Shown here one piece after another: positions 5,552 through 18,474 of a stretch of 64,000 nt of DNA (the first letter of the stretch is position 1; each line of letters opens with the position of its first letter). The DNA is taken from positions 11,395 to 75,394 of the forward strand of contig JAUWLW010000007.1 of NCBI GenBank assembly GCA_030613505.1, given 5' to 3'. The notes beneath the pieces are model-generated. The model ran no database searches. It worked only from the letters and a program-made list of their open reading frames with translations, and was not told the DNA's origin. The stretch comes from Candidatus Zixiibacteriota bacterium. GTDB taxonomy: Bacteria; RBG-13-66-14; B26-G2; WVWN01. Made by a program: the position numbers and the translations under genes.

Positions 5552-6202
5552 GTGAGTATAACCGCGGAAGATTTCGTAAAATTAGTGAAAGGACGTCGCT
5601 CGGTACGGACGATGTCCCCTGAGCCTATTCCTCGAGAACATTTGGATGCGATCATCGAATGCGGTCTTTTTGCCCCATCCGGTTCGAACCAGCAACCTTG
5701 GCATTTTGCGGTTGTTACAGATAGAAAATTAATAAATAAGATGAAAGATGCTGCGGTGGCGAAAGTCGAATTAATAAAAAGTAGGATATCGTCCGCCAGC
5801 GCGCAACGGAGTTTCGACGGATATATTCAGTACATAACGTTCTTTGGTAACTCGTCGGCCGTAATCTGTTGTTTCTTCGAGCCTTACCGCGCGCTACTCG
5901 AGCGGCTACTAAACAGGTACGCGCCTGAAATATCGGTCAGTACGCGCGAAAACGCATCTATACAAAGCGTCGCCGCAGCGGTAGAGAATATGTTGTTGGC
6001 GGCGCACGCCTTCGGGTACGTGGGGTGTTGGATGACCGGGCTGCTAATAGCGAAGGAAGACATCGAGGCGCTGGTGAAACCGGAGGGAAAATGGGAACTT
6101 ATCGCGATGGTCGCGCTAGGCCACCGGCGCGAGGGCAAGGGTGCGCCGCAAGCGCCTGAAAGACGGCCTAGGGATGAAACGGTATCGTATTTCGGGGAAT
6201 GA
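5552..6202 (+). CDS. Nitroreductase-family flavoprotein
   Basis: A 216-residue protein of the FMN-dependent nitroreductase fold. The N-terminal GRRSVRTM motif binds FMN phosphate; LFAPSGSNQQPWHFAVV follows as in classic nitroreductases; the C-terminal half has AVENMLLAAHAFGYVGCWM and ALGHRREG, which form the second FMN contact. The family reduces nitro groups, quinones or other two-electron acceptors with NAD(P)H, and some members act in cofactor metabolism, so the substrate is open. Translation starts at GTG 5552. The stop lies four bases before the L,D-transpeptidase start. Confidence 0.88.
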   Translation: MSITAEDFVKLVKGRRSVRTMSPEPIPREHLDAIIECGLFAPSGSNQQPWHFAVVTDRKLINKMKDAAVAKVELIKSRISSASAQRSFDGYIQYITFFGNSSAVICCFFEPYRALLERLLNRYAPEISVSTRENASIQSVAAAVENMLLAAHAFGYVGCWMTGLLIAKEDIEALVKPEGKWELIAMVALGHRREGKGAPQAPERRPRDETVSYFGE

Positions 6203-15988: not shown

Positions 15989-16375
15989 ATGGACCGCAAA
16001 CTAGTAGGCCGATGTGGTAAATTTTGCGGCGAATGCCGGATTTATATTGCCGCTCACGCCGACGATCCCCAGACGGTCACCGAACTCGCCCGCGAAATGG
16101 GCGTCGAGCCCGAACGTATAAATTGCACTGGATGCCAGGGCCCCGCCGAAACTTGTTATAACGCCCAATGTAAGATCGCCGTCTGCCTCGACGAAAGGGG
16201 CTACCGTTATTGCGCGCAATGTGCCGAGATAAACGACTGTACCAAGTACGCCCAAAATAACGTTGAGTTCGACGGCCGTCCCAAAATCTACTCTAATCAA
16301 TTAAAGGCCTGGGGCGAGGAACGCTGGTTGAGGTTCCACCTCGGCGACGCCGGCGAAGGTCCCGACGAGGATTAG
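15989..16375 (+). CDS. DUF3795 cysteine-rich protein
   Basis: A 128-residue protein with ten or more cysteines. It opens with GRCGKFCGECRIY, continues with INCTGCQGPAETCYN, CKIAVC, YRYCAQC and NDCTKY, the usual DUF3795 pattern. Cysteine spacing suggests metal or iron-sulfur binding; no DUF3795 member has an agreed function that I know of. It is the first of three consecutive small cysteine-rich genes, the next of which repeats the GRCGxFCGxCxIY opening. The gene starts at ATG 15989, eight bases after the preceding stop. Confidence 0.8.
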   Translation: MDRKLVGRCGKFCGECRIYIAAHADDPQTVTELAREMGVEPERINCTGCQGPAETCYNAQCKIAVCLDERGYRYCAQCAEINDCTKYAQNNVEFDGRPKIYSNQLKAWGEERWLRFHLGDAGEGPDED

Positions 16376-16393: not shown

Positions 16394-16654
16394 TTGGCCC
16401 GCAACGCGGATGGGAACCAGGGGCCCGGCCTGGTTGGACGTTGTGGCCTATTTTGCGGAAGCTGCGCTATTTACGCCGATTTGGATGAAAGGTACACGGG
16501 TATAAAAAGCCGCAACTTAACGCGGCGGCGGGAGCTCGGCGACGCGGCGTGGCTGGCTGAGCAACGCGCCGAACGCGCGTGCAGCCGGTGCGGTCGGCCC
16601 TTAATATACGGCGACGACGAGTGCGCCTACTGCGGCGCGACGAGGACGGCGTAA
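16394..16654 (+). CDS. Short DUF3795-like / zinc-ribbon protein
   Basis: An 86-residue product starting at TTG 16394. Its first third carries GRCGLFCGSCAIYADL, matching the N-terminus of the DUF3795 protein just upstream, but the rest of that domain is missing. The C-terminus is instead a zinc-ribbon knuckle pair, CSRCGRP and CAYCGA. It could be a natural fusion of a DUF3795 amino end with a zinc ribbon, or a shortened duplicate that has kept a metal site. The selenoprotein gene starts two bases after its stop. Confidence 0.65.
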   Translation: MARNADGNQGPGLVGRCGLFCGSCAIYADLDERYTGIKSRNLTRRRELGDAAWLAEQRAERACSRCGRPLIYGDDECAYCGATRTA

Positions 16655-16656
16655 GA

Positions 16657-17130
16657 ATGTCAAGGCCGGGACGGGAAATTGAAGACGTCGACGCGCTCGC
16701 CAAAGCCGCCGTTAACCTCTTCTGCGAAGGTTTCAATTGAGCGGAAGCCGTGGCGACCGCGGTGAGCGGTTTCTTCGGCGCCGGCGAAAGTTGTTTACCC
16801 CGTGTCGCCACCTGCTTCGGTGCTGGTCTGGGCCGGCGGGGTGAGATATGCGGCGCCTTGGCCGGAGCGTTAATTGCGGTCGGTTTACGGCACGGGAGGC
16901 GTGAGGGCGAAGGGGACGAGGCGAAAGAACGGTCCTACGAGCGCGCCGCGTACGTGGTCGGGGCCTTCCGCGAACGCTTCGGCACGATCCTGTGCCGCGA
17001 GTTGATCGACCTGGATTTAAGCGAACCGGAAGGGCGGGAGACTTACCAGCGTAAAAATATCCGAGACAAGTACTGCGTCGATTACGTGACGGCCGCGGTA
17101 AAGGCGGCTTACGAGGCAATCGGCTCTTAA
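16657..17130 (+). CDS. C_GCAxxG_C_C family selenoprotein (in-frame TGA read as Sec)
   Basis: From ATG 16657 the frame runs 27 codons, meets TGA at 16738-16740, and continues without a break to the stop at 17130, giving 157 residues with residue 28 as selenocysteine. The first part, AVNLFCEGFN, followed by the TGA codon and AEAVATAV, is the normal start of the C_GCAxxG_C_C redox family, whose members have a cysteine just where the TGA lies. The other family marks follow in frame: ATCFGAGLGRRGEICGALAG, ILCREL and KYCVDYV. A hairpin follows the TGA (see 16741). Family members with Sec at this site are known. A simple gene finder would call only 16750-17130 or split it. Role: probable thiol/selenol redox protein; partner unknown. 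Confidence 0.85.
16741..16773 (+). promoter_or_regulatory. Possible bacterial SECIS hairpin
   Basis: Directly after the in-frame TGA, bases 16744-16750 (GAAGCCG) can pair with 16767-16773 (CGGTTTC), seven pairs with one G-U, around a 16-base loop rich in G. The position, a few bases to about 35 bases after UGA, is where bacterial SECIS elements lie so that SelB can deliver tRNA-Sec. The loop shape was judged by eye and not folded. Confidence 0.45.
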
Positions 17131-17151
17131 CGGTCGCACTTGAGCGCAAAT

Positions 17152-17172
17152 AGCCGCCGGGGGGCGGCTTTT
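17152..17172 (+). terminator. Terminator-like hairpin after the selenoprotein gene
   Basis: A perfect 7-bp GC-rich stem (17152-17158 with 17163-17169) closes a GGGG loop and runs into TTTT. It lies between the selenoprotein stop (17130) and ATG 17179 of the phosphorylase. Its place also argues against the TTG at 17140 as the phosphorylase start. Confidence 0.5.
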
Positions 17173-17178
17173 AAAATA

Positions 17179-18474
17179 ATGGTCGCCGCAAGCTTGTGGT
17201 TCACGGATTTAATCGTTCGCAAACGCGACGGCAAGGCCGTCGCCGACGACGATTGGCGCCGTTTCGTAGAAGCGCTCGGAGCCGGCGAGCTCCCCGATTA
17301 CCAGATATCAGCGCTTCTCATGGCCGTATACTTCCGGGGAATGACCGTCGAGGAAACGGCGGCGTTGACGGCGGCCATGGCCGCTTCGGGCGAACAATTA
17401 GTGCTCGACGAGGGACCGTACGTCGATAAACATTCGACAGGCGGCGTGGGCGATGCTGTAACGCTCGTTGCCGTGCCCTGGGCGGCGGCTTGCGGGGCAC
17501 GGATAGCTAAGCTCTCGGGCCGTAGCTTGGGACATACGGGCGGCACCGTCGACAAACTGGAAGCCATCCCCGGTATAAACCTATCGCTCACCGCCGAGGA
17601 GCTAAAAGAGCAAGCGAACCGCGTTGGGTGCGCCGTCGCCGAAGCGCACGCCGTTGCGCCCGCGGATGAAATCATCTACGCGCTCCGGGACGCCACGGCT
17701 ACGGTGGAGGCGTTACCCTTAATGGTCTCCAGCATATTGAGCAAAAAACTCGCCGGCGGAGCTCCCGCTTTCGTCTTCGACGTCAAAGCGGGTAGGGGAG
17801 CCTTCGCCAAAGAAGAGAATTACGCTCGCGAGCTCGGCGGTAGTTTGATCGCCGCGGCTAAAGCGTCCGGTCGGAAGGCCGTCGCCGTAATCACGTCCAT
17901 GGACCAGCCGTTGGGGCGCACCGTGGGTAACGCGCTCGAGGTCGCGGAGGCGGTTGAGACGTTACAGGGCCGGGGCCCCGACGACTTGCTCGAGGTTTCG
18001 GCTGTGATCGCCGCCGAGATGCTGACCGTGGCGGGCATCGCCGGCCCGGAAGAAGCGCGACGCCGCTTGGAAGCGACCCTTGAGAAAGGGGAGGCTTTCG
18101 CGAAGCTCGACGAGATGGCGCGCGCCCAGGGTGCCCCCGCCGAATGGTGGACTCGCCTTCCGGAAGCGGCGAAGACGGCTCCCGTGAAAGCCGAACGGGG
18201 AGGGTACGTATCGGGTTTGGACGCCTTCGCCGTAGCCCGGGCGGCCAACACGCTTGGGGCGGGCCGGCAGGTAAAAGAGGACGTCGTTGACCCGGCGGTC
18301 GGCGTCGTCCTGCACAAGAAGGCAGGGGAACCGGTATCGGCCGGCGACGTGTTGATGACCCTTCGCTACAACGACGACGAGCGCTTGCGCCGGTCCCTCG
18401 AATTCGCGCGAGTCGCCTTCGACGTCGGCGAAAAGCCTACGCCGCGTCCGTTAATACTCGGGGTATTGCGATAG
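17179..18474 (+). CDS. Pyrimidine-nucleoside / thymidine phosphorylase
   Basis: About 431 residues of the thymidine/pyrimidine-nucleoside phosphorylase family, which splits (deoxy)uridine or thymidine with phosphate to base and (deoxy)ribose-1-phosphate. Visible are DLIVRKRDGK at the start of the helical domain, DKHSTGGVGD (phosphate-binding loop), SGRSLGHTGGTVDKLEAIPG (substrate site), KKLAGGAPAFVFDVKAGRGA, and a C-terminal barrel-sandwich domain (GVVLHKKAGEPVSAGDVL). Length is normal for pdp or deoA; the two cannot be told apart here. The frame is open from TTG 17140, but a hairpin there makes ATG 17179 more likely. It would work with cytidine deaminase (2614) in salvage. Confidence 0.92.
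   Translation: MVAASLWFTDLIVRKRDGKAVADDDWRRFVEALGAGELPDYQISALLMAVYFRGMTVEETAALTAAMAASGEQLVLDEGPYVDKHSTGGVGDAVTLVAVPWAAACGARIAKLSGRSLGHTGGTVDKLEAIPGINLSLTAEELKEQANRVGCAVAEAHAVAPADEIIYALRDATATVEALPLMVSSILSKKLAGGAPAFVFDVKAGRGAFAKEENYARELGGSLIAAAKASGRKAVAVITSMDQPLGRTVGNALEVAEAVETLQGRGPDDLLEVSAVIAAEMLTVAGIAGPEEARRRLEATLEKGEAFAKLDEMARAQGAPAEWWTRLPEAAKTAPVKAERGGYVSGLDAFAVARAANTLGAGRQVKEDVVDPAVGVVLHKKAGEPVSAGDVLMTLRYNDDERLRRSLEFARVAFDVGEKPTPRPLILGVLR

Follow-up and report, generated by a model that had tools for sequence, protein, structure and literature searches.

The locus raises the question of whether a TGA in the middle of an otherwise open reading frame ends the gene or is read as selenocysteine (Sec). 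In the window, by which we mean the whole stretch of 64,000 nucleotides that was analysed, the frame running on the forward strand from ATG 16657 to TAA 17130 encodes 157 amino acids when the internal TGA at 16738-16740 is counted as a residue. The codon usage around every TGA of the window was scored on both strands, and only this one was flanked by coding signal in both directions. The read-through protein matched PF09719 over residues 26-153 (E 6.6e-25, 87.9 bits against a cut-off of 27) and TIGR01909, which carries the NCBI name "C-GCAxxG-C-C family (seleno)protein" (E 2.2e-16, 60 bits against a curated cut-off of 47.4), and both curated cut-offs for the C_GCAxxG_C_C family were thus passed. 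When the protein was aligned with 20 relatives, C28(U), C65, C113 and C140 were invariant and the TGA occupied the first of these four positions. The window protein therefore has the family pattern C, C-G-A-x-x-G, C, C with its first Cys as a predicted Sec, which lies in the context ...EGFN-U-AEAVATAVSGFF..., and two further cysteines adjoining the motif, Cys46 and Cys53, were conserved in members of the genus. A scan of viral contigs gave no relative. The preliminary description of this DNA had read the frame as open on both sides of the TGA, the two halves as one C_GCAxxG_C_C protein and the TGA as falling on the conserved first cysteine, and all three readings were borne out.

The genomes that were compared are labelled G000 for the source, with G000-G003 forming one genus, G004 belonging to the same order and G005 to the same class. 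The gene and its key codons are listed here.

16657..17130, forward strand: predicted selenoprotein gene of the C_GCAxxG_C_C family, from ATG to TAA, 157 aa, with a single UGA inside the frame; orthologues with the same TGA in G001, G002, G004 and G005
16738..16740, forward strand: UGA codon predicted to be read as selenocysteine (Sec28) at the first invariant Cys of the family, from frame, alignment, coding scan and tree
16849..16851, forward strand: Cys65 codon (C-G-A motif), invariant in the alignment
16993..16995, forward strand: Cys113 codon, invariant in the alignment
17074..17076, forward strand: Cys140 codon, invariant in the alignment

Within the phylum, the Sec28 column held a TGA in G000, G001, G002, G004 and G005, a TGC in the congener G003 and a Cys in G007, G009, G010 and G013. 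Outside the phylum, a TGA occurred in the same column in G037, G322 and G184, which belong to one family, and in G160 and G223; five distant Sec-labelled rows of the tree (L043, L045, L049 and two in L050) were excluded from this count of five unrelated genomes. The in-frame UGA is thus aligned with a Cys of homologues, and the alternation of TGA and Cys in one column, which the preliminary description had proposed as a check, was found. When 72 members of the family were placed on a maximum-likelihood tree, with those five distant rows taken as labelled, nine exchanges of Sec and Cys were required, and well-supported branches forced at least five of them. In this tree, whose bootstrap had not fully settled, the Cys form of G003 branched within its own genus, surrounded by Sec forms, at a fork with support 96/59. 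The closest named genomes with the gene were those of Candidatus Coatesbacteria (CP070633.1 and JAUVZD010000008.1), and the source is taken to be an uncultivated bacterium of this group. One record titled Candidatus Zixiibacteriota (L052, WVWN01000062.1) was identical in sequence to G003, a member of the Coatesbacteria genus, and is probably misnamed.

These distributions bear on two explanations in which no Sec is inserted. The assembly is unfinished, with 100 contigs, and the congener G003 has TGC, which would fit a true TGC or TGT misread as TGA through a sequencing or assembly error. The same-column TGA recurred in four more Coatesbacteria, each assembled separately, and in five or more unrelated genomes, and this independent recurrence refutes such an error, which had been named beforehand as one of the findings that would overturn the proposal and which we regard as extremely improbable. 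The other explanation is a nonsense mutation in a decaying gene, whose product would be either nothing or the 126-aa protein of the GTG-start frame that directly follows the TGA (16750-17130). This is very improbable, since coding signal was kept on both sides of the TGA, the stretch LFCEGFN before the TGA was conserved among relatives and the TGA itself was conserved across species. In addition, a comparison between G000 and G001 placed 48 of the 69 differences in codons 42-158 at third positions, and no frameshifts or other stops were seen in the orthologues. The conservation and the pattern of TGA and Cys on the tree thus exclude both a misread base and the decay of the gene.

The machinery for Sec was then considered in the source genome (2.86 Mb, 93% complete, spread over 100 contigs). 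A tRNA-Sec scored 66.7 bits against the Rfam cut-off of 47 and was called as tRNA-SeC with anticodon TCA by ARAGORN, and SelA (403 bits; L017, G000:C95:11982-13136), SelB (319 bits) and SelD (344 bits) all exceeded their curated cut-offs. All four components that the preliminary description had suggested looking for were therefore present, with SelA short at its N terminus, and its other refuting condition, a genome devoid of Sec machinery, is excluded. The selD gene (L019, G000:C23:20762-21685, minus strand) has an in-frame TGA of its own in the active-site motif G-U-A-A-K (TTAAG-TGA-AAK), and thus a second gene of this genome needs Sec. Besides the source genome, SelB was found in all eight TGA-carrying genomes that were tested.

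Two observations on the machinery stand apart from this. Across the phylum, the alignment of SelA (L017, L078-L085) to its model began at about position 66-73, and the lack of about 68 N-terminal positions is a point against Sec insertion; in the source genome a stop lies directly upstream of the start, so that the N-terminal region is missing or replaced. This region binds tRNA in other bacteria, and its shortfall coexists with a tRNA-Sec in the source genome. In G004, from the same order, the TGA gene, SelA and SelB were present and the best tRNA-Sec match reached 46.7 bits, below the Rfam cut-off, so selC is either divergent or missing there.

Two genes with an in-frame UGA, the selenoprotein gene and selD, could also suggest that UGA is reassigned throughout the genome to Trp or Gly, as in genetic codes 4 and 25. 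However, TGA was the terminator of 18 of the 43 long ORFs in the window, and the genome has RF2 (prfB, 446 bits). Since the release factor is present and TGA is used as a stop, this reading is refuted and its probability is negligible. Both in-frame TGAs were moreover located at Cys positions, and the window contained no other TGA flanked by coding signal.

The RNA that follows the TGA could fold into a hairpin of the kind that directs Sec insertion in bacteria.

16742..16783, forward strand: putative bacterial SECIS hairpin, -23.9 kcal/mol as the minimum-energy fold
16761..16765, forward strand: GGUGA loop at the apex of the putative SECIS, beginning 20 nt after the UGA

The apical stem has 6 bp, formed by 16755-16760 paired with 16766-16771. 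The preliminary description had also placed a SECIS hairpin after the TGA, and a hairpin that conforms to the bacterial model is indeed found there; the version it drew, with seven pairs (16744-16750 with 16767-16773) and a 16-base loop, reached -6.2 kcal/mol and was out-competed by the fold at 16742-16783. A published account gives the limits of a bSECIS as a loop of 3-9 nt with a G in the first two places, a stem of 4-16 bp, a spacing of 16-37 nt and a minimum free energy of at most -7.5 (PMC13188914). The hairpin lies within all of these limits, with GGUGA, 6 bp, 20 nt and -23.9 kcal/mol. In the G+C-rich window, however, a loose bSECIS model was passed by 39% of the TGA triplets, and a bSECIS-like hairpin is by itself weak evidence here. 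For this reason, the hairpin of each Sec gene was compared with those of 300 synonymous recodings of that gene. The window hairpin was more stable than all 300 (p 0.003), and the corresponding values were p 0.007 for G002 and p 0.04-0.07 for the other Coatesbacteria, G037 and G160. The hairpin of G322 was not more stable than its 300 recodings (p 0.40). In the congener G001, the apical stem and loop were identical to those of the window, and a search of Rfam gave no matching family at the hairpin. We also considered whether the lack of synonymous change in the apical stem, when G000 is compared with G001, reveals a constraint on the RNA; this was dropped because other parts of the gene have unchanged stretches of the same length. 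In the Cys congener G003 (L052), a fairly stable hairpin with a GGUG loop was observed 20 nt downstream of TGC 6049-6051 (p 0.037), which weakens the hairpin as evidence for Sec. It could be a relic SECIS left after a recent change from Sec to Cys, or an effect of the shared amino acids.

Taken together, the frame, the homology, the residue column, the machinery, the conservation and the hairpin are the sequence evidence from which we infer that the cell very probably reads UGA 16738-16740 as Sec and makes a true selenoprotein, as the preliminary description had proposed. In the pathway that we suggest, SelA would use selenophosphate from SelD to convert seryl-tRNA(Sec) to Sec-tRNA(Sec), which SelB would bring to UGA 16738, guided by the hairpin that follows this codon. 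The product would be an all-helical protein of 157 residues with Sec28, Cys65, Cys113 and Cys140.

The neighbours of the gene are the following.

15989..16375, forward strand: DUF3795 (PF12675) cysteine-rich protein, upstream, conserved in the genus, possible operon partner
16394..16654, forward strand: small cysteine-rich ORF of 86 aa without a family, ending 2 nt before the start of the selenoprotein gene
17140..18474, forward strand: pyrimidine-nucleoside phosphorylase (PF00591/PF02885/PF07831), downstream, conserved neighbour

The neighbours conserved in the genus, namely a GAF-HD protein, a protein without a family, the DUF3795 protein and the pyrimidine-nucleoside phosphorylase, gave no hint of a substrate. 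The small ORF contains a GRCGLFCGSC motif that resembles the start of its DUF3795 neighbour. It is absent from this place in the congener G001, and one congener has at most a short trace of it.

A further question is what Sec28 and the three invariant cysteines may do together. The AlphaFold model was all-helical (pLDDT 92.7, pTM 0.89), and its best structural match by VIA-align was split-Soret cytochrome c (1h21), with Z 13.1 across 134 residues and the next match at Z 6.5, although this match joins two all-helical proteins at a Z value that helical bundles may reach by chance. Foldseek returned no significant PDB or viral match for the model. The title of the 1h21 entry refers to "a novel iron centre". 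A weak sequence link pointed to the same protein (NF047622, E 4e-4; profile E 0.016), and in the profile alignment with 1h21 the cysteine of the C-G-A motif (Cys65) and a C-terminal Cys at the position of Cys140 were shared; a Cys is lacking in 1h21 where the window protein has Sec28. From this likeness in fold, we propose that the Sec and the three Cys together make up a redox-active centre. An Fe-S or metal-thiolate site would be its most likely kind, and to this metal part we give about an even chance. Cys65, Cys113 and Cys140 would then bind the metal, and Sec28 would either serve as its fourth ligand or act as the reactive residue of the open site. A likeness to the L-cysteine desulfidase CyuA, whose [4Fe-4S] cluster is held by three conserved Cys (PMC12647591), was set aside at Z 6.5, which is the level of chance, and was kept only as a lead.

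Alternatively, Sec could be inserted into a metal-free thiol/selenol oxidoreductase in which Sec28 forms a selenenylsulfide with a Cys, a reading that competes only with the metal part of the proposal. In favour of it, thiol oxidoreductases are common among the selenoproteins of bacteria, the name of the family is "putative redox-active protein", and the genus members have the additional conserved Cys46 and Cys53. However, the fold was all-helical and not thioredoxin-like, the closest structure contains an iron centre, and the window protein has no CxxU or UxxC motif; a metal-free enzyme is therefore possible but somewhat doubtful. Returning to the Fe-S or metal-thiolate centre, a more specific form of it is that selenium is a ligand of an Fe-S cluster or acts directly beside one, at a site where Sec and Cys were swapped repeatedly (at least five forced changes, one of them apparently within the genus). 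We regard this as rather unlikely; if true, the family would be a natural series for studying the contribution of selenium to such a centre.

A comparison with known systems showed where the window protein belongs. It resembles other C_GCAxxG_C_C proteins (PF09719/TIGR01909) in exceeding both cut-offs and in the four Cys positions, and differs in that the first Cys is a predicted Sec. Its domain corresponds to the N-terminal part of the HUGP/GUXX-star fusion selenoprotein NF045501 (E 1.4e-18, model positions 11-154 of 236), but the second domain is lacking and the score was 67.3 bits against a cut-off of 325, which places it outside that family. With split-Soret cytochrome c it has in common a similar predicted fold and the C-G-A cysteine, but it has no CxxCH heme motif and reached 19.9 bits against the 400 required for NF047622. 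It shares with the SECIS-directed selenoproteins of bacteria the UGA, the hairpin immediately downstream and SelA/B/C/D, with no apparent difference in mechanism. The decoding mechanism is thus the ordinary bacterial one, and the family is already known to contain selenoproteins: C_GCAxxG_C_C is listed as a selenoprotein family in a 2022 review (PMC9312934) and, as "form 1" and "form 2", in a 2026 review (PMC13188914).

No mention of selenocysteine or a selenoprotein for Candidatus Coatesbacteria turned up in the open-access papers that were searched. The present analysis adds for this group a selenoprotein that is well supported by comparison, together with a complete Sec system that includes a Sec-containing SelD. 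Standard gene callers end the gene at the TGA, and the Sec residue is thereby lost. In the C_GCAxxG_C_C family, the repeated exchange in one column, with a Cys form amid Sec forms of the same genus, would provide a clean comparison of what selenium does.
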